Shown here: positions 13,807 to 59,708 of the stretch, one piece after another
Numbering within the stretch: position 1 is the first letter of the stretch
Layout: each line of letters opens with the position of its first letter
Assembly: GCF_016593255.1 (NCBI RefSeq)
Contig: NZ_AP023212.1
Location: 1,352,001 to 1,416,000 of the forward strand
Source of the DNA: Hydrogenimonas urashimensis
GTDB taxonomy: Bacteria; Campylobacterota; Campylobacteria; Campylobacterales; Hydrogenimonadaceae
Reading direction: 5' to 3'
DNA length: 64,000 bases
The notes under the pieces: generated by a model
What the model was told of the DNA's origin: nothing
Databases searched by the model: none
The model's input: only the letters and a program-made list of their open reading frames with translations
Made by a program: the position numbers and the translations under genes

Positions 13807-15759
13807 CTAATCGATCCGCTTGGCGCCGCAGAAGCGGATGCCGTGGAATTTGGGTTCGCTGTGGTAGACCACTTCGAAGCGGATTTTCTCAAGGCCGTTG
13901 ACCGGCCTGTCGAATGTCACCACGCCTTTGACGCCTTCAAGACCGGCTGCGTTGCAGTGGTTCGCCTCGTCGATCCCGTAGAACGAGAGGCCTTTCTCCG
14001 ACACGTCGAAAACGAATCCCCGGTCGACGATGCCGTTTTCGTACTCGATCGTGATGGCGACCGGCGGCGAGACGATGGTCCTGGGCATCTTTCTTTGGTT
14101 CACGACCGTTTCGAATCCGTCGCTGAGCACCTTGAGTTCGGCACTCTCTTCGGAGATCATCGTCATCACCGACTCGACATTCTTCGTGCTTTCGACGATG
14201 CGCCGGTTGCCTTCCGTCACCGAATCGAGCCGGTCCAGAATCTTCGCATACGCTTCGTACTCCTTGGCGAACTCCTGGCCGAAATGGTCCATCGTCCTGA
14301 TCGTTTCGCGCTGGGTCGACTCGATCTCCTGAAAATAGTTTCCGACCCGTTCCGAACTCTCCTGAAGATTGAGGAAGAAGGATTTCGTATGGGTGGCGTT
14401 TTGGACGACACCGTCGATGTTTCTGACCATCGACTGGATGATGCGGCGGGTATTGTTCGCATTCTCCATCGACACTTCCGCCAGCTCCCGCACCTTCTCC
14501 GCCACGACGGCGAACCCCCGGCCGTGCTCGCCGGCACGGGCCGCTTCGATCGCCGCGTTGAGCGCGATGAGATTGGTCTCGTCGGCGATCTCCGAAATGA
14601 GTTCGATCGTTTTTGAGACGCTTTCCGAGAAGCCTTTGAGCTCCTCGATCGAATGGATCGTGTCCTCCAGCGCTTCCGAAGCCTTCCGGGTCTCTTTCGC
14701 GTTCTCCCGCATCTGCTCCTGCCCCCGCTCGATCAGCCGGACCGACGCGTCCACGTGGGTCACGAGCTCTTCGAGCTGGCCGCTGAGGGCCTGGTTCATC
14801 CGGCCGATCTCCCGGAGGCTCTCGGCGACATGTTCCACCTCTTTGGTCTGATCCATCACCGACTCGTTGGAGGCTTTCAGGCGAACCAGCCCGTAGGAGG
14901 CCTCGAAAGCGACGTTTTTCGACTGGGTCACCACCTTCGCGATCACCGGACGCAGGACATCGACCATCTGCTTGAGATGGAGAAAGAGCTGGTCGATCTC
15001 GTTCCGGCTCTTCTCGTCGATCTTCGCGTCCTCCCCCAGAATGTCGTCGATGATGAACTTCCCCCTCTCCACACGCTTGAAGATCTGCAGCAGCTTCTCA
15101 AGCCGCTCGGCGATCACCCGCCGGAAGAGAAAATGGATCACCAGCAACACCACGGCGACGTTGACGAACCAGTTCAAAAAGGAGTAGAGAATGTTGCCTT
15201 CGAGCGCCGCTTTGTAGTCGCTCAGATCGATCCTCGCCGCCTCGATGGCGATGACGTCGCCGGGTGTCCATGTGGGATGGCAGAGTTTGCACCGCTTTTC
15301 CGCGATCATCGGCCTGGCGAGCATGTAGTACGATTTGCCCTTCTGCTCGACCTCCGTCGCGTACTCTTTTTTATCCCTGTGCTGCTGGAAATAGTCGATC
15401 GCCCGCTCTTCGAAGGGCAGCGCCCTGTTTTTCGGGTCCATCGGCATTTTGGAGGCCTCCTTGAAGAAGACCTTGCCCTCGCTGACTGCCGTGAATTTGT
15501 CGAATACCTCGTTCTGGATCATCTGGGGAACCTCGGGCGATTCGCCCGAGAAGAACTTTTCGTTGCGGCTTTGCAGCAAAACGTCGGCGAAATTGAGCAC
15601 GCTTTTCGCTTCGTTGTAGAGGTTCTGTTTCAGCGCCTTTTTGTTCTCGTCGAACTGGTACCAGTAGATGGCCGCGGAGATCACGACCATGGCGCCGGCG
15701 ATCAGAATCGAGAACATGACGGAGAGCGGTTGTTTGCGGATATATTCGGGAATATACAT
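13807..15759 (-). CDS. Heme-binding chemoreceptor with C-terminal PilZ domain
   Basis: A 650-residue methyl-accepting chemotaxis protein. A membrane helix at about residues 14-34 is followed by a periplasmic DUF3365-type sensor with a CKLCH c-type heme motif (157-161). A second membrane helix lies at about 192-213. Then comes a long coiled coil with the conserved signalling hairpin [20 protein letters not shown]. The last 95 residues form a PilZ domain with both c-di-GMP-binding motifs, RKMPR (556-560) and DVSEKG (585-590). It probably senses redox, oxygen or NO through heme and signals to CheA/CheW, with c-di-GMP as a possible second input. No che genes are nearby. Confidence 0.88.
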
Positions 15760-15803
15760 GAAGAGGACCTTCCGTGCTGTCTGAATGAATTTCCGATAAA
15801 TAC

Positions 15804-15809
15804 ATTATA
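15804..15809 (-). promoter_or_regulatory. -10 box of the chemoreceptor gene
   Basis: A perfect TATAAT on the minus strand lies 45 bases upstream of the chemoreceptor ATG, in the 83-base gap behind rmuC. No -35 box matching consensus is seen at 16-18 bases. Confidence 0.55.
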
Positions 15810-15842
15810 GTATCGTCCAACGGGAAAATCACTTGACAGACA

Positions 15843-26018: not shown

Positions 26019-27230
26019 ATGCAAAAAGAGTCAAAAATTTTCGTCGCCGGAGGCACGGGCCTCGTAGGTTCGGCCATTGTCAAAAACCTGATAGCAAAAG
26101 GCTACACGAACATCGTCGCCAACTACCACAGCCGCGAACCCGAAAACGGCCTGCCCGTACAGTGGGAAAGGCTCGATCTCCTCGATCCGTCGGCCGTGAA
26201 AGCGTTTTTCGAAAAACAAAAGCCCGACTTTGTCTTTCTCGCGGCCGCCAAAGTGGGCGGCATCGTCGCCAACAACGTCTACCGGGCCGACTTTATCTAC
26301 CAGAACCTGAGAATTCAGAACAACGTCATCCACCAAAGCTACCTCAACGGCGTCAAGAAGCTGATGTTTCTGGGCAGCACCTGCATCTACCCCAAAGAGT
26401 GCCCCCAGCCGATGAAAGAGGAGTACCTCCTCACCGGTGAGCTGGAGTACACCAACGAGCCCTACGCCATCGCCAAGATCGCCGGCATCAAGATGTGCGA
26501 AAGCTACAACCTCCAGTACGGCACCAACTACATCAGCGTCATGCCCACCAATCTCTACGGCCCCAACGACAATTTCGACCTCGAAAAATCCCACGTCCTG
26601 CCGGCGCTGATTAGAAAGATCCACCTGGGCAGAGCCCTGGAAAACAACGACTGGCAGGCGATCCGAAAAGATCTGGACGCCCTCCCCATCGAAGGCGTCG
26701 ACGGCGGCGCCACCGAAGAGGAGATTCTTGCCATTTTGGGAAAATACGGCATCACGATCGGCGACATGCAGCGGGTCTCCATCGAAATCTGGGGGTCGGG
26801 CAGACCGATGAGGGAGTTCCTCTGGAGCGAAGACATGGCCGACGCGTGCGTCTTTTTGATGGAGCGCGTCGATTTTTCCGATATCGTGAGAAACCAGTTC
26901 GGTCCCGAAGCGGCCCTCTCGACGGAAGGCGACGGAAAGAGCTGCGAAGCGTTGACGGCGCCGAAAGCGCCGGCCGCCGAGATCCGAAACACCCACATCA
27001 ACATCGGCACCGGCATCGATATCTCCATCCGCGACCTCGCCCATCTTGTGAAGAAAATCGTAGGTTTCGGCGGCGACTTTGTTTTCAACACCGACAAACC
27101 CGACGGCACGATGAAAAAACTCACCGATGTGACCCGGCTCAACGCTCTGGGATGGCGGCACCGCGTGGAGCTGAAAGAGGGGATCGAAAAGATGTACGCC
27201 TGGTACTCCCAAAAGGCCGAGTCCAAATGA
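26019..27230 (+). CDS. fcl: GDP-L-fucose synthase, long variant
   Basis: Fcl epimerises and reduces GDP-4-keto-6-deoxymannose to GDP-L-fucose. The product has the NADP motif VAGGTGLVGSAIVKNL, the GSTCIYPKECPQPMKE segment and YxxxK in NEPYAIAKIAG. At 403 residues it is longer than the usual 310-320. One extra block of about 45 residues lies after KIHLGRALE (about 208-250). A second, Ala/Pro/Thr-rich block lies at about 289-325, before NTHINIGTG. The ATG directly follows the toxin stop codon. Confidence 0.93.
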   Translation: MQKESKIFVAGGTGLVGSAIVKNLIAKGYTNIVANYHSREPENGLPVQWERLDLLDPSAVKAFFEKQKPDFVFLAAAKVGGIVANNVYRADFIYQNLRIQNNVIHQSYLNGVKKLMFLGSTCIYPKECPQPMKEEYLLTGELEYTNEPYAIAKIAGIKMCESYNLQYGTNYISVMPTNLYGPNDNFDLEKSHVLPALIRKIHLGRALENNDWQAIRKDLDALPIEGVDGGATEEEILAILGKYGITIGDMQRVSIEIWGSGRPMREFLWSEDMADACVFLMERVDFSDIVRNQFGPEAALSTEGDGKSCEALTAPKAPAAEIRNTHINIGTGIDISIRDLAHLVKKIVGFGGDFVFNTDKPDGTMKKLTDVTRLNALGWRHRVELKEGIEKMYAWYSQKAESK

Positions 27231-35209: not shown

Positions 35210-36353
35210 CTACCACGGCGGCTACTGGCCCTCGCAAGAGGACACATACCTTCTCGAAGCCATTCTCCTGCCCAAAGACGCCGCCCTCGAAGCCTGGGAA
35301 AAGTGGCTGCGGACCGTAAACTACGAAGCGCTGCAGGAGGGGCCGCAGCGCATGTTTCCCCTGCTCTACATGAAGCTAAGAAAAGAGGGCGTGGAGCATC
35401 CTTTGATGCAGCGTTTCAAAGGAATCTACAGACGGGCCTGGTACAAAAACCAGATGACGTTCCATCGCATCCGCCCGCTCATGGAAGCCCTCGACGAAGC
35501 GGGGGTGCGGACCGTCATCCTCAAAGGCGCGGCGATGATCGCACTGTATTACAGAGACCTTGGCTTGCGCCCCATGAACGACTTCGACTTTCTGATCCGG
35601 CTTTCCGACGTGGCAAAAGCCCTCCCCGTCCTTAAAAAAGAGGGGTACGAACCCATCGACGGCACCTGGGAGATGTTCGACGAGGAACTCTTCTACTTTA
35701 TGCACGGCTTCGGCTTCAGACACACGCAGACCGGACAGGAGCTCGACCTGCACTGGCATCTGCTCAGGGAGAACTGCGGCACCCATGACGACGATGCCCT
35801 CTGGCAACGCGTTCAACCCGTGGATTTCAACGGTTTTTCCACCTATACTCTCGATGCCACGGACCACCTCATGCATACATGCGTCCATGGCCTCGAATGG
35901 AACCCTGTCGCCTCCATTCGCTGGATCGCCGACGCGAAAACCATCATCGACAACAGCGAAATCGACTGGCCGCGGCTTCTCGACGACGCGCGGACCCGGC
36001 ATGTCGTTCTGCCGCTTCTTTACTCGCTGCGCTACCTGTGGGAGCGGTTTCATGCATCGATTCCAGAGGATGCCCTGACGGGACTTGAGGCTATCGAACC
36101 CAAAAGAATCGAATACTACCGGGATGCCGTCAAACGCTACGGTGAGAACCTCACCTTCAAAGAAGAGCTGCTTAAAAGAATCTACATGTACCTCAACTAT
36201 GTGCAGGCCCGCTCCAAACGCCCCTACGCTTTTTTGAACCCCGTGTGGGCCTTCTCCTTTTTGAAGCTGTACTGGCGGCTCTCCTCCATATGGCAGATAC
36301 CGGGGGAGCTGGCCGGGCTTTCCGTACGTGTTTTCAAAAGAGCCGTCACATGA
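35193..36353 (+). CDS. PF14907-type nucleotidyltransferase family protein
   Basis: A 386-residue protein of the uncharacterised nucleotidyltransferase family (NTP_transf_5). The core is VILKGAAMIALYYRDLGLRP followed by MNDFDFLI, whose D-F-D would bind metal. ELDLHWHL and HLMHTCVHGLEWNP follow. Members occur beside HPr-kinase-like genes in lasso-peptide clusters such as paeninodin and in polysaccharide loci, but their reaction is not well known. A second, distant copy is at 49848, again next to an HPr-kinase-like gene. That pairing argues for joint action. Confidence 0.82.
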   Translation: MKTPTDYHGGYWPSQEDTYLLEAILLPKDAALEAWEKWLRTVNYEALQEGPQRMFPLLYMKLRKEGVEHPLMQRFKGIYRRAWYKNQMTFHRIRPLMEALDEAGVRTVILKGAAMIALYYRDLGLRPMNDFDFLIRLSDVAKALPVLKKEGYEPIDGTWEMFDEELFYFMHGFGFRHTQTGQELDLHWHLLRENCGTHDDDALWQRVQPVDFNGFSTYTLDATDHLMHTCVHGLEWNPVASIRWIADAKTIIDNSEIDWPRLLDDARTRHVVLPLLYSLRYLWERFHASIPEDALTGLEAIEPKRIEYYRDAVKRYGENLTFKEELLKRIYMYLNYVQARSKRPYAFLNPVWAFSFLKLYWRLSSIWQIPGELAGLSVRVFKRAVT

Positions 36354-36423
36354 AACCCGACCAGGCGGCACCGCTTCTCTAGCGGCCATGCGAACCGGAC
36401 GCAAAACGCAAAGAGACCGAAAC

Positions 36424-37668
36424 ATGCATACACTGACCGAAGACAAAAAGAGGCTTCTTTCGAACTTCTTTTCGCTCTCGGCTCTGCACGGCATCAACAT
36501 GCTCCTGCCCCTTGTCACGCTGCCGTATCTCGTCAGGGTGCTGGGCGTGGAAAACTACGGTCTTGTCAACTTCGCCCTCTCCGTCATCATGTATTTCAAC
36601 ATCCTCGTAAGTTTCGGTTTCGAGCTCTCAGCGACCCGAGAGATCTCCGTCAACAGAGACGACAGTCGCAAAGTGACGGAAATCTTCTCCACCGTCATGC
36701 TCATCAAGGCTTTTTTCGCGTTCGTCTCCTTTCTTCTGCTCGGACTGCTTGTAAACGGCATCGAACTACTCAGCCGCCACGCGGCGCTCTACTATGCTAC
36801 ATTCGGCCTGGTCGTCGGAAACGTCCTCTTTCCCACCTGGTTTTTTCAGGGGATGGAGAGAATGAAATACATCACATTCATCAACGTCGCTTCGCGCATC
36901 GCCTTTACCGTGCTCATTTTCGTTTTCGTCAAAGAGAGCGACGACTACATCTACGTACCCATTCTCAACGCATCGGGCGCCATTCTCGGGGGGCTCTACT
37001 CCCTGTGGCTCATATTTCGGCGTTTCGGCATAAAAAAAATCGTCCTGCCCACCCGGGCAACGCTCCGCGGCCAACTGCGGGAGAGCTTTCATTTTTTCCT
37101 CTCCCGCGTCGCGGGAAACGGCGCGCAGCATCTGGCCACCGTCATCGTCGGTCTCTGCTTCGGCAACCTCATCGTCGGCTACTTCTCCATGGTGGGCAAG
37201 CTGACCATGGCCTTTTCGAGTCTGGGAGGCATCCTCTCCCAAACCATCTATCCCTACATGAGCCGCACCAGAAATATCCGCTTTTTCAAAAAGCTCTTTT
37301 ACGGCACGACCGTTTTCGCGACACTCGCCATCCTTCCGATTCTCTATTTCAACGAATCCCTCTTTCTTTTCGTATTCGGCGTCCAAAACAGTACCCTGTC
37401 GCACCTTTTCATCATCATCTTCGGCGCCTCCGTGTTCGGCATCATGAACGCGCTTGTAGGGTACCCCCTGCTTGCCGCTTTCGGCTACACCAAAGAGGCG
37501 AACAACTCTCTCATTTACGCATCCGCTCTCTACATTCTCTTCGTGCTCATAGGCGCACTGGTTTTTCGCGACTTCTACCTGGTGGCCTACGCGCACGTTT
37601 TCAACATGCTCACCGCCCTTGCCATCAGATTCCACTACATCCGCAAACATCGCCTGTGGAACATCTGA
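36424..37668 (+). CDS. Polysaccharide flippase (Wzx-like)
   Basis: A 414-residue integral membrane protein with about 12 predicted helices and the N-terminal signature NFFSLSALHGINMLLPLVTL followed by PYLVRVLGVENYGLVNFA, typical of Wzx/RfbX. It would flip undecaprenyl-linked repeat units to the periplasm. The frame is open upstream, but the ATG of MHTLTEDKKRLL fits best. It is 70 bases behind the nucleotidyltransferase. A second, AT-rich flippase gene lies at 38671, so the locus may make two polymers or one copy may be redundant. Confidence 0.88.
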   Translation: MHTLTEDKKRLLSNFFSLSALHGINMLLPLVTLPYLVRVLGVENYGLVNFALSVIMYFNILVSFGFELSATREISVNRDDSRKVTEIFSTVMLIKAFFAFVSFLLLGLLVNGIELLSRHAALYYATFGLVVGNVLFPTWFFQGMERMKYITFINVASRIAFTVLIFVFVKESDDYIYVPILNASGAILGGLYSLWLIFRRFGIKKIVLPTRATLRGQLRESFHFFLSRVAGNGAQHLATVIVGLCFGNLIVGYFSMVGKLTMAFSSLGGILSQTIYPYMSRTRNIRFFKKLFYGTTVFATLAILPILYFNESLFLFVFGVQNSTLSHLFIIIFGASVFGIMNALVGYPLLAAFGYTKEANNSLIYASALYILFVLIGALVFRDFYLVAYAHVFNMLTALAIRFHYIRKHRLWNI

Positions 37669-44786: not shown

Positions 44787-46025
44787 ATGAATATATTGCT
44801 TGAAGCTTATGCCTGCGAACCCCACAAAGGAAGCGAGCCGGAAGTGGGTTGGCAAATGGCCAATGAAATCGCGAAAATTTTTCCGAACGATACTATACAT
44901 GTCATTACAAAAGCGAACAATCAAGAGGTCATAGAAAAAGAGAGTTATCCGCCAAATCTGAAGTTTTACTATTACGAACCACCAAAATGGTTGACTTTCT
45001 GGAAGAAGGGGGGGCACGGGGTTCGCACTTATTACTATTTATGGCTGATAGGTGCGGCTCTTTTTCTGAAAAAGCGGAAAATTGATTTCGACATTATCCA
45101 TCATGTAACTTTCGTAAACGATTGGTTACCGAGTTATCTCTTTTTATTGAAAAACAGGAATAACAGTTTTATCTGGGGACCCATAGGAAGCCATGACCCG
45201 ATCGATCCAAAGTTTCTCGAAAGCCAAAAGCGAAAAACCGTAGAAAAAATTCGCATTGGTCTGCAAATATTTTTTAGAAATTTCGACCCCGCTTTTTATA
45301 TTTGCAAAGCGAAATCAGACTGTATTGTCGGAATAAACAGCAATGTCCGCCACAAACTCGGGTTGCGAAAAAACGATTGCTTCATCGCCGAACCGGCCAT
45401 CGCCTTGAAAAAAAGCGATACCGAAAATATACAGCACTTTAAAAGCGAATCAGACTGCTTCACCATCGTTTCGGTGGGCCGCCTAATGTATATAAAAAAC
45501 TTCGCGATGTCTCTTCGTATTTTCGCAAAATTTGTGAAAAATGTTCCAAGCACCAAAGCAAAACTGCAAATCATAGGGGATGGAGAAGATCGGAAAGAGC
45601 TGGAAAAACTGGCTAAAGAACTGAATATTAAAAAGAATGTAGAATTTATGGGCAACATTCCCCGAAAAAAAGTCATGGCACAATTTGCCCATGCCGATGT
45701 GTTTATGTTCCCTACACTTGAAAACGCCGGATTCGTGATCTTGGAAGCCATGGCCTACGCTTTGCCTGTACTCGCGATGAAGTATGGTGGTCCACAGCAG
45801 TTTGTGCTCAATTATAAAGATGAACAACTGGTTTCGCCACATTTGGCTTATAAAGAAATCGTCGAAATGCTGGCCGAACGCCTCGAAACGCTATACAGAA
45901 ACGAAGATTTGCGCAAGAAAATCGGCATACAAAACAGGCAAGATGTTCTAGAGCACTTCACATGGGAAGCCAAAGCTAGGAAAATGAAAGATATTTATAC
46001 AAAGGTGCTTCATGAAAAAACCTAA
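44787..46025 (+). CDS. Family 4 glycosyltransferase
   Basis: A 412-residue GT-B fold glycosyltransferase. The N-terminal YACEPHKGSEPEVGWQMANE segment is the acceptor-binding loop of one GT4 subgroup. The C-terminal half has VSVGRLMYIKNFAMSLRIFA, LQIIGDGEDRKELEKLAKEL and the EX7E motif within FPTLENAGFVILEAMAYALP. It starts directly after the kinase stop codon and overlaps the next gene by 14 bases. Confidence 0.92.
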   Translation: MNILLEAYACEPHKGSEPEVGWQMANEIAKIFPNDTIHVITKANNQEVIEKESYPPNLKFYYYEPPKWLTFWKKGGHGVRTYYYLWLIGAALFLKKRKIDFDIIHHVTFVNDWLPSYLFLLKNRNNSFIWGPIGSHDPIDPKFLESQKRKTVEKIRIGLQIFFRNFDPAFYICKAKSDCIVGINSNVRHKLGLRKNDCFIAEPAIALKKSDTENIQHFKSESDCFTIVSVGRLMYIKNFAMSLRIFAKFVKNVPSTKAKLQIIGDGEDRKELEKLAKELNIKKNVEFMGNIPRKKVMAQFAHADVFMFPTLENAGFVILEAMAYALPVLAMKYGGPQQFVLNYKDEQLVSPHLAYKEIVEMLAERLETLYRNEDLRKKIGIQNRQDVLEHFTWEAKARKMKDIYTKVLHEKT

Positions 46026-47142
46026 GCTTCTTTGCATATTGCACCGCTCTCCACCCGCACATGGTGCGGCGAAAGTGGGGGATTTCATAGCATCCAGCAT
46101 TAAACTCAAAGAAGTATACGACTGCAGATTCGTAACGATAAGATCGTCGGATACCATTGGCGACATAGGAAAAGTGAGCTTCAAAAAAATTTACCTGTTA
46201 ACGGAGCTTTATGCCAAAGTATTATGGGCATTAGTAACATTCAGGCCGGATAAAATATATTATACCGCTTCAGTACAGGGTGTGGCGTTTTACAGAGACT
46301 TGCTCATCTCGACATTGTGGAAAGCATACAGAACTTTCAAAGATGGGGAGGTTTTTTACCATTATCACACCAAAGGTGTCGATGAGTTTGTTTCGGCATC
46401 CAGACGCAATCTGATATTGACGCGTTTTTTCGTGAAAGATGTAAACCTGATACTGCTCAGTCCTTGGCTAGAAAAAGATTTCGAAAAAGTGAAGACATAC
46501 AAAAAAGTTCTTTATCTACCCAATGGCGTAGAAGATCCCATGGCCAATGAAAACTTCGAAGCGTATATTGACAAGAAATATTCGAATATAAAAACGATCA
46601 ATGTCTTATATCTCGCTCATATGATGAAAGAAAAAGGATATTGGGAAGTTCTAGAATTAGCCAATAAAACGAAAGATTTCGATATTCATTACGATTTCGC
46701 GGGAAGTTGGCAAAGTATTGAAGATGAAAAGGGGTTTTTTAATTTTTTGGAAACACGCAATCTCAAAAAGAGAGTGACTTATCATGGATATGTCTCCGGA
46801 AAAAAGAAACACAACCTTTTCAAAAAAGCGCATTTACTTATGTACCCGTCAAAGAATGATGCTTTTCCACTTACATTGATCGAATCACTTTCTTATGGCA
46901 TACCCGCCATAGCAACTGATGAAGGATCTATTCCATTTATATTGAATGAAAAATGTGGCATTGTATTGAATAAGAACAATATGGATTTGTATGAAGCATT
47001 GCAAAAAGGGAAAGAAAAGTTTTTAAACAAAAAGACTGCCCAGTATTGCAGGAAACGATATTCGAAATATTTCACTCTCGAACAGTTCGAAAAGAACCTC
47101 GTGAAGATTTTCGATGATGATATGAAAGAGAAAATATACTGA
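46012..47142 (+). CDS. Family 4 glycosyltransferase
   Basis: A 376-residue GT-B fold glycosyltransferase. The start LLCILHRSPPAHGAAKVGDF, the linker YLPNGVEDPMANENFE and NVLYLAHMMKEKGYWEVLEL fit the GT4 pattern. The donor site is YPSKNDAFPLTLIESLSYGI. It is the last gene of the plus-strand polysaccharide operon. A secreted beta-helix gene on the other strand converges on it 115 bases later. Confidence 0.92.
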   Translation: MKKPKLLCILHRSPPAHGAAKVGDFIASSIKLKEVYDCRFVTIRSSDTIGDIGKVSFKKIYLLTELYAKVLWALVTFRPDKIYYTASVQGVAFYRDLLISTLWKAYRTFKDGEVFYHYHTKGVDEFVSASRRNLILTRFFVKDVNLILLSPWLEKDFEKVKTYKKVLYLPNGVEDPMANENFEAYIDKKYSNIKTINVLYLAHMMKEKGYWEVLELANKTKDFDIHYDFAGSWQSIEDEKGFFNFLETRNLKKRVTYHGYVSGKKKHNLFKKAHLLMYPSKNDAFPLTLIESLSYGIPAIATDEGSIPFILNEKCGIVLNKNNMDLYEALQKGKEKFLNKKTAQYCRKRYSKYFTLEQFEKNLVKIFDDDMKEKIY

Positions 47143-57006: not shown

Positions 57007-57136
57007 CGGCATCCCCTTGACTGGATTTTCGCATGCGGCTTTGAAACCGTACGCGAATTGACTGATTATCACAATTTTTCGCTTAATGTTTGGTGAAACG
57101 GGCGTTGGAGCGGCCAGGAGGCCGCTTCAATGTTTC

Positions 57137-59485
57137 TTAGACGTAGTACTTGTTGCTGTAGCCGTAGTTGGCGCCGTAGGCGAACCCGTAGGCCCCTTTC
57201 TTGGCGCTGACCTTGACGTCGTTGAGGATGATGCCGGCGGTGATGTCGTATTCGGCGGCCAGCCAGTTGATGTTTTTGAGGAAGGCTTTCTTCGAATAGT
57301 CGGCACGCATGACAAAAAGGGTGATGTCCGAGATGCGCATCGGCGCCATGGCGTCGGAGACGACCCCGATGGGGGGCGAGTCAAGAAGGATGTAGTCGTA
57401 CTCGCTCTGCAGCGAGGCGATGAGGCTGCGGAAGCTTTTGGACATCAGCAGCTCGGAGGGGTTCGGGGGCGTCGGGCCCGCCGTAATGACGTGAAAGCCC
57501 TTCTCCTGGGTGTACTGCACGCTCTCCTTGAGGGTCGATTTGTTGACCAGCAGGGTGCTCACCCCCCTCTCGTTGGCGAGGCGGAAGAGCTGGTGGACCC
57601 GGGCGCGGCGCAGGTCGAGGTCGAGGAGGATCACCCTCTTGCCGCTTTTGGCGATGATCTTGCCCAGCTCGGTCACGATGGAGGATTTCCCCTCCTTGGG
57701 GACCGTGGAGGTGATCGTGATCACCTTGGAGCTGCCTTTGTTCTGCAAAAACTCCAGGTTGGTCCGGATCACCCGCAGCGCCTCGTGGAAGGCGCTGATG
57801 TTCTTGCGCCCCGTGAAGTGGGGCACGACGCCGTAGAGGGGGATCTTGGTCAGGCGCTCGAGCCCCTCGGCGCTCTTGATCGTGTCATCGAGGAAGTTGC
57901 GCAAGAACGCGAAAGCGATGCCCAGGATGAGCCCCAGCACGACGCCCAGCACGATGATCAGGCCGCGCTTGGGCTTGACGGGCCGCTCCCCGACGAAGGC
58001 GTTTTCGGCCACCCTGACCTTCGGCACGGCGGAGGCGGCGACGATGGCGGTCTCGGCCCGTTTTTCCAGCAGGTAGTTGTAGATCTTCTCGTTGACCATG
58101 AAGTTGCGGTTGAGCTGGGCGAGTTTGCGCTCCTCTTCGGGAAGCGCCTGCAGCTCCTTCTCGTTCTCCTCGATGATGCCCAGCAGCGACTGCTTGCGGT
58201 TTTCGAGCCCGCGGATGCTGCTTTTGATCGATTCGATCAGGGAGTGGCGGAGGCTCTCGAGCTCCTTGGTCACCTTCACGACGTCAGGATGCGATTCGGT
58301 CACCGACGCCAGCAGCGTGTCGCGCTGGGCGTAAAGCTCCTGGATCTTGAGGATCAGCGAGGTGATCGTCGGGTTGGAGGCGGACATCGTCTCGACGTTG
58401 ATCCCTTTGATGTTGCGGTGGGTCTTGAGGTATTCGAGCAGGTTTTTGAGCACCGAGAGGCGCATGTCGATTTCGTAGAGCTGGCGCTGGAGTTCGCTGA
58501 TCTTCTCGGCCGTCAGCGTCGCCTTCTGGCCGATCTTGGTGATGATGTGGCTGCTCTTGAACTCCTGCAGCTTCTCGGCGGACCCCTGCAGGGCTTTGTT
58601 GATGGCGGCGAGCTGCTCGTCGAGGAACTTGAGCTTCTTCTGCGCGCTCTGGGCGGAGAGATCGATCGACTCGCCCATGTAGGCGTTGATCAGGGCGTTG
58701 ACGATCTCCTTGGCCCGCTGCGGCACCGGGTCCAAAAAGGAGATCTCGACGATGGTCCCCTCCTTCGAGAGGGGCGCGACGGAGAGATTTTGCTGGATGA
58801 AGCCCAGCATCATCGGGTTGGGGGTGAGGGTGAAGGCGTACTCTCCGTCCGCGGGGTCGTAGACTTTCTGCACGGTCAGGGAGAACCATTGCGAATCGAT
58901 CTCCTCGCCGTAGTTGTGGGCGTGGTCGTAGGAGAAGGGGCGTTCCTCGGGCGGGACGTCGCCGATCAGGCCGCGCACGCCGTCTGCGATCTTCTCCTTG
59001 AGGCTCGGCTCGACCACGAGACGGAACGACTCCTCGTTGATGGGGAAGATTTTAAAGGTGCTGCGCAGAGCGTTGGGGGCGGTCATCTTCGGGATGACGA
59101 CGAAAGGGGAGTTGCGGTAGAGCTCGCGCTTTCTGAAGTTCTTTATCAGGTAGTAGCGTATGCCGATCGTGACCTGCTCGAGGGCCTTGAGGCCGATGTG
59201 GGGCATCTGGAAGGTGTCGATGACGTTGTTGATGTTGGCTCCGACACCGGAGGAGGCCATGGCCAGGAAGTCCCGCATGTTGCCGGGACCGTTTTCGTCC
59301 TCCTGGACCTCGATGTAGGCCTTGGCCTGGTAGATGCTCGGCGCGACGTAGGCGTAGAGGGCGGCGCCCAGCGTCAGCAGCAGCGTAATGACGACGATCG
59401 AGATTTTGTAGCGCTTGAGGGTGTCGAATATCTCCTTGATATCGATCTCGTCCTCGTCGATCTCATGCTTTGTTTCGGTTGCCAT
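57137..59485 (-). CDS. Wzc-like tyrosine autokinase with Wzz domain
   Basis: A 782-residue inner-membrane BY-kinase that controls polysaccharide chain length and export. The N-terminal Wzz domain has one helix near residues 28-50 (ISIVVITLLLTLGAALYAYV) and a long periplasmic coiled coil; a second helix (GLIIVLGVVLGLILGIAFAF) is near residue 505. The kinase domain has Walker A STVPKEGKSS (593-602), Walker A' VILLDLDLRR (618-627) and Walker B YILLDSPP (698-705). The tail holds a tyrosine cluster (YGFAYGANYGYSNKYY) that would be the autophosphorylation site. No Wzb-type phosphatase or Wza porin is in the window. Confidence 0.95.
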   Translation of the reverse strand: MATETKHEIDEDEIDIKEIFDTLKRYKISIVVITLLLTLGAALYAYVAPSIYQAKAYIEVQEDENGPGNMRDFLAMASSGVGANINNVIDTFQMPHIGLKALEQVTIGIRYYLIKNFRKRELYRNSPFVVIPKMTAPNALRSTFKIFPINEESFRLVVEPSLKEKIADGVRGLIGDVPPEERPFSYDHAHNYGEEIDSQWFSLTVQKVYDPADGEYAFTLTPNPMMLGFIQQNLSVAPLSKEGTIVEISFLDPVPQRAKEIVNALINAYMGESIDLSAQSAQKKLKFLDEQLAAINKALQGSAEKLQEFKSSHIITKIGQKATLTAEKISELQRQLYEIDMRLSVLKNLLEYLKTHRNIKGINVETMSASNPTITSLILKIQELYAQRDTLLASVTESHPDVVKVTKELESLRHSLIESIKSSIRGLENRKQSLLGIIEENEKELQALPEEERKLAQLNRNFMVNEKIYNYLLEKRAETAIVAASAVPKVRVAENAFVGERPVKPKRGLIIVLGVVLGLILGIAFAFLRNFLDDTIKSAEGLERLTKIPLYGVVPHFTGRKNISAFHEALRVIRTNLEFLQNKGSSKVITITSTVPKEGKSSIVTELGKIIAKSGKRVILLDLDLRRARVHQLFRLANERGVSTLLVNKSTLKESVQYTQEKGFHVITAGPTPPNPSELLMSKSFRSLIASLQSEYDYILLDSPPIGVVSDAMAPMRISDITLFVMRADYSKKAFLKNINWLAAEYDITAGIILNDVKVSAKKGAYGFAYGANYGYSNKYYV

Positions 59486-59708
59486 AACTTTTTCCTGCGG
59501 TTTTTCATCGTAATAGATATAATCGGCAATTGTACAAAAAAGTTATTGATACTTTGCTGACGCAAAAAGGCCGGAAGCGGCGAAAACCCAAAGGCCCCCT
59601 TCGCGCACATCCCGCACGCCGCCGGGGCCTCGGCGAACCTTATTTTAAAATATCTTATGAGTGAATATGCTATCGTTATAGACCAGACCAGGAGGAAAAG
59701 GAGCGGTT

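Follow-up and report, generated by a model that had tools for sequence, protein, structure and literature searches.

To our knowledge, neither heme Cache sensors nor PilZ-tailed chemoreceptors have been studied in much depth. The DUF3365/Tll0287 family of heme sensors, renamed sCache_heme, is enriched in Campylobacterota and has a CxxCH motif in 99% of its members, and tight NO binding was measured for one signaling-type member (preprint PMC12889525). In the Geobacter proteins GSU0582 and GSU0935, whose heme domains belong to methyl-accepting chemotaxis proteins (MCPs), spin state and ligation change with redox; these relatives show reversible Met60 ligation as well as NO/CO binding and are described as redox sensors (PMC8396549). 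The distal heme ligands of known family members are a Cys in Tll0287 and Met60 in GSU0935 (PMC8396549).

Among receptors with a PilZ domain, Aer and Tlp1 of Azospirillum brasilense have a role in oxygen or energy taxis (PMC6406031, PMC13401364). The PilZ domain of Aer is needed for normal aerotaxis, which is altered by its deletion (PMC6406031). Azorhizobium caulinodans Cbp1 binds c-di-GMP through an RxxxR motif, and mutation of this motif abolishes binding (KD, 14.9 µM for Cbp1 and 6.9 µM for Tlp1; PMC6454048). In the count of Russell et al. (2013), as cited in PMC6454048, 52 of 20,681 chemoreceptors carry PilZ, which agrees with the statement in a preliminary description of the present locus that such domains are known but uncommon on chemoreceptors.

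Gene and domain organization

The receptor gene described here comes from Hydrogenimonas urashimensis, whose genome is a single 2.30-Mb contig, and lies in a window of 64,000 nucleotides (i.e., the whole stretch of DNA analyzed). The interval 13807-15759 of this window is exactly one complete open reading frame (ORF) including the stop codon; the strand, left unstated in the preliminary description, is the minus strand. The features of the gene are as follows.

13807..15759 (-): sCache_heme-HAMP-MCP-PilZ chemoreceptor gene; 650 aa; ATG start; interval includes stop
15667..15723 (-): predicted first transmembrane (TM) helix; residues 13-31; hydropathy peak, 2.39
15190..15666 (-): predicted periplasmic DUF3365/Tll0287-like (sCache_heme) sensor domain; residues 32-190; Pfam PF11845
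15277..15291 (-): c-type heme attachment motif CKLCH; residues 157-161
15124..15192 (-): predicted second TM helix; about residues 190-212; hydropathy
14950..15129 (-): putative HAMP domain; residues 211-270; Pfam PF00672, E = 0.0017 (below cut-off)
14287..14706 (-): MCP signaling domain; residues 352-491; PF00015 (MCPsignal), E = 1.3e-29
13810..14100 (-): C-terminal PilZ domain; residues 554-650; orthologue Pfam matches, six-strand barrel model, and PDB fold matches
14080..14094 (-): RxxxR motif RKMPR; residues 556-560; both Arg invariant in 23 sequences
13990..14007 (-): [D/N]xSxxG motif DVSEKG; residues 585-590; Asp and Gly invariant and Ser in at least 90% of 23 sequences

The domain order is therefore TM helix, DUF3365/Tll0287 (sCache_heme) domain with CKLCH, TM helix, putative HAMP, MCP hairpin, and C-terminal PilZ. 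On the basis of the two hydropathy peaks only, the CKLCH domain is predicted to be bracketed by the TM helices and hence periplasmic, with RKMPR and DVSEKG in the cytoplasm. The HAMP match is sub-threshold (score, 19.1 vs. a cut-off of 25 bits) and is located as expected, after the second TM helix. The MCP hairpin-tip motif, a 27-letter stretch of the translation, starts at residue 391. Orthologues align with the receptor over its full length (42 to 88% identity), and the closest named relatives are Hydrogenimonas metagenome-assembled genomes. Antisense ORFs over the same interval (e.g., 14653-15810 on the plus strand; 385 aa) were rejected because it is the minus frame that holds the domain matches and the full-length orthologues.

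The receptor gene is flanked by housekeeping genes, namely rmuC on one side and purN-like and NAD(P)H-hydrate repair genes on the opposite side. These neighbors include no operon partner and thus provide no operon clue to the function of the receptor. Elsewhere in the window, sugar-nucleotide epimerase, polysaccharide flippase, and glycosyltransferase genes (26019-27230, 36328-37668, and 44787-47142) suggest a surface polysaccharide cluster. Two long open frames overlap on opposite strands (57086-59560, plus strand, 824 aa; 57137-59485, minus strand, 782 aa), and the plus-strand frame had no Pfam match at 1e-8.

The heme sensor domain and its cue

The PF11845 match spans residues 50 to 163 and exceeds the Pfam cut-off (E = 2.8e-11; 44.5 vs. 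24.1 bits). Four residues of CxxCHP (both Cys, the His, and the Pro right after it) are invariant in 23 orthologues. Because neither the sensor profile nor the PilZ profile retrieved a relevant relative from the PDB sequences, we used fold comparison for both domains. The AF2 model of the sensor domain, folded without heme, has a pLDDT of 91. Its best structural match is Tll0287 (5B82; Z = 13.9; 2.9 Å; 135 residues), which scores 3.4 Z units above the next entry; other Cache sensors, such as Helicobacter pylori TlpB, are at a Z of about 10 to 10.5. The Tll0287 match surfaced only in this comparison, after a Foldseek search with the same model in which the Geobacter heme MCP domain GSU0935 ranked second (E = 3e-4; low TM). 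The motif and the fold point to a covalent c-type heme in the periplasmic domain. The c-type heme motif noted in the preliminary description is thus backed by a Pfam match above the cut-off, a Tll0287-like model, and an invariant CxxCH.

The heme would read either NO or the redox state, and we lean toward NO. The orthologue alignment of the sensor domain contains no conserved Cys, Met, or His outside CxxCH, which favors an exchangeable distal site; the preference for NO is based on this apparent exchangeability and on the denitrification genes in the genome (i.e., NapA and NosZ). The evidence for NO as the cue comes from one preprint (PMC12889525) and one other protein, which counts against this reading.

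An alternative that we consider plausible, if somewhat unlikely, is that the heme senses redox or electron acceptors (i.e., for aerotaxis or energy taxis) and not NO, with the PilZ domain acting in the same manner. It is favored by the behavior of GSU0582 and GSU0935, members of the same family that alter their spin state and ligation with redox and are described as redox sensors (PMC8396549), and by M80, which lies about where Met60 or the Cys of Tll0287 would align, so that Met/His ligation may occur in H. urashimensis. Family members have V, I, or M at this position, and the lack of any other conserved Met, Cys, or His outside CxxCH, together with the tight NO binding by a signaling-type member (PMC12889525), argues against a redox sensor and for the NO reading.

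The genome also encodes a stand-alone Tll0287-like heme protein, which is related in sequence to Tll0287 (L045 1324-1926; G000:C1, about 302,200). Redox roles have been assigned to stand-alone proteins of this kind (PMC12889525).

The PilZ tail and a candidate mechanism

Pfam gave no PilZ match for the 650-aa receptor itself, and its tail had no Pfam match of any kind; PF07238 matched the tails of 9 of the 23 orthologues (best E = 5.3e-7). The RxxxR and [D/N]xSxxG motifs are correctly spaced in the receptor tail. Four of their five defining residues (R, R, D, S, and G) are invariant in the 23 sequences and the Ser is conserved in at least 90%, while the mean column identity of the domain is 43%; few residues elsewhere in the PilZ domain are as strongly conserved as those of the motifs (hypergeometric P, about 1e-4). 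The AF2 model of the tail is a six-stranded barrel (pLDDT, 80.8). Its top PDB matches are the PilZ domains of YcgR, PP4397, BcsA, VCA0042, PA0012, and Alg44, most of them solved with c-di-GMP (Z up to 10.8), and the MapZ-CheR1 structure is also among the fold matches. A chance motif match was rejected on the basis of the conservation in the 23 orthologues and the predicted fold. Judged by the orthologue sequences and the model, the C-terminal PilZ domain is real, although Pfam misses it here. The preliminary assignment of a PilZ domain containing RKMPR and DVSEKG therefore stands, given the Pfam matches of orthologues and the closeness of the model to PilZ structures with bound c-di-GMP. From the conserved motifs and the fold, we infer that the tail binds c-di-GMP.

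Binding of c-di-GMP is not universal among PilZ domains, and the tail could be a nonbinding PilZ fold with a structural or protein-interaction role (e.g., CheR binding as in MapZ), which we consider unlikely. The missing Pfam match in the receptor, the presence of MapZ-CheR1 among the fold matches, and two relatives without the motif Ser (L055 and L074) speak for such a role or against c-di-GMP binding. The conservation of the motif residues speaks for binding, as does the retention of all five in the other 27 of the 29 PilZ-bearing relatives. The tail is thus a likely c-di-GMP receptor missed by Pfam, in a genome that encodes 28 GGDEF domains above the Pfam cut-off and one other PilZ protein visible to Pfam. 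The latter, the sole Pfam-visible PilZ protein of the genome (L031 1-1878; G000:C1, about 2,075,400), also contains a weak, probably degenerate GGDEF domain.

We propose that the gene probably encodes a flagellar chemoreceptor that reads NO or redox at a periplasmic c-type heme and is tuned by cytoplasmic c-di-GMP. Outside, the Cache-fold domain with its covalent c-type heme would bind NO, or the redox/spin state of the heme would change. Family knowledge suggests that this change would shift a helix and be relayed through the second TM helix, HAMP, and the MCP hairpin to alter CheA activity. Inside, the PilZ domain, just past the MCP coiled coil, would bind c-di-GMP and adjust receptor signaling or adaptation, as in Azospirillum Tlp1 and Aer; its effect may fall on either CheA or adaptation. 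Together with Cbp1, these two receptors are the precedents for the proposed mechanism. The motile-or-sessile state of the cell would thereby set how sensitively it follows NO/redox gradients. The genome encodes chemotaxis partners, including one CheA (dimerization domain found) and a CheR. It is very improbable that the sensor works as an ordinary Cache domain that recognizes a small-molecule ligand, with CxxCH vestigial or unoccupied: the next fold matches are indeed Cache-type chemoreceptor domains including TlpB, but CxxCH and the following Pro are invariant, Tll0287 is the clear best match, and a cytochrome c assembly protein is encoded in the genome.

A second Tll0287-like heme sensor in the genome is fused to GGDEF and EAL domains (L044 1375-3396; G000:C1, about 519,500-521,500). 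Through this protein, a periplasmic heme cue could also change the level of c-di-GMP, which is probably what the chemoreceptor reads as its second input. A Campylobacterota circuit in which a periplasmic c-type heme cue (probably NO from denitrification) feeds both the heme GGDEF-EAL protein and the heme/c-di-GMP chemoreceptor is speculative, and we would not expect it to be correct. If it were, one cue would set direction via heme and gain via c-di-GMP in the same receptor.

Distribution and comparison with described receptors

A scan of public genomes identified 27 loci in Hydrogenimonas, Sulfurimonas, Sulfuricurvum, Sulfurospirillum, and other Campylobacterota, and the C-terminal domain is present in all of the complete loci except L070. 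Close relatives of the sensor (i.e., E below 1e-60) occur in 21 of the 299 genomes sampled from the order, and the sensor-plus-PilZ form occurs in 18 of the 299 (six family codes). The distribution of the latter is patchy, even inside a genus. The heme-plus-PilZ architecture is therefore that of a conserved but patchy family.

When the PilZ columns were left out of the receptor tree, the five PilZ-less receptors (L070, L094, L096, L106, and L108) formed one clade, on one side of a branch with a support of 100/100, so that a single gain or a single loss is enough to account for the pattern. These receptors carry the same heme sensor, and their sequences end right before the position of RxxxR. 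Conversely, four genomes with one genus code (G105, G138, G158, and G168) encode the same MCP-PilZ part with both PilZ motifs and a shortened periplasmic region without CxxCH; chemoreceptors of that related genus (L123, L124, L125, and L126) lack the heme motif and keep the PilZ tail. As judged from these two sets of sequences, the heme and PilZ inputs are separable modules. A family with both inputs, along with natural relatives without PilZ or without the heme motif, makes the integration of an outside redox/NO cue with c-di-GMP directly testable.

Full-text searches of a set of open-access papers yielded no description of a chemoreceptor pairing heme with PilZ, and the sCache_heme preprint (PMC12889525) makes no mention of PilZ in its main text. 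As far as could be found, the heme sensor with a PilZ tail is a new combination of two halves that are each already known. On the sensor side, the receptor resembles the sCache_heme (PF11845) chemoreceptors GSU0935 and GSU0582 in having a periplasmic Cache-like fold and a CxxCH followed by an MCP part (PMC8396549, PMC12889525). It differs from them in its C-terminal PilZ domain and in the absence of a conserved distal Met or Cys, and from Tll0287 in a shorter segment after CxxCH. On the cytoplasmic side, it resembles Azospirillum brasilense Aer and Tlp1, which are membrane MCPs that end in a PilZ domain and have c-di-GMP-binding residues (PMC6406031, PMC13401364). In contrast to the receptor described here, Aer senses by a cytoplasmic FAD-PAS domain and Tlp1 is without a typical oxygen-sensing domain (PMC13401364), and no c-type heme sensor is described in either of them. 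Cbp1 of Azorhizobium caulinodans likewise has an MCP signaling domain followed by PilZ with RxxxR (PMC6454048), but it is a soluble protein without TM helices or a heme sensor.
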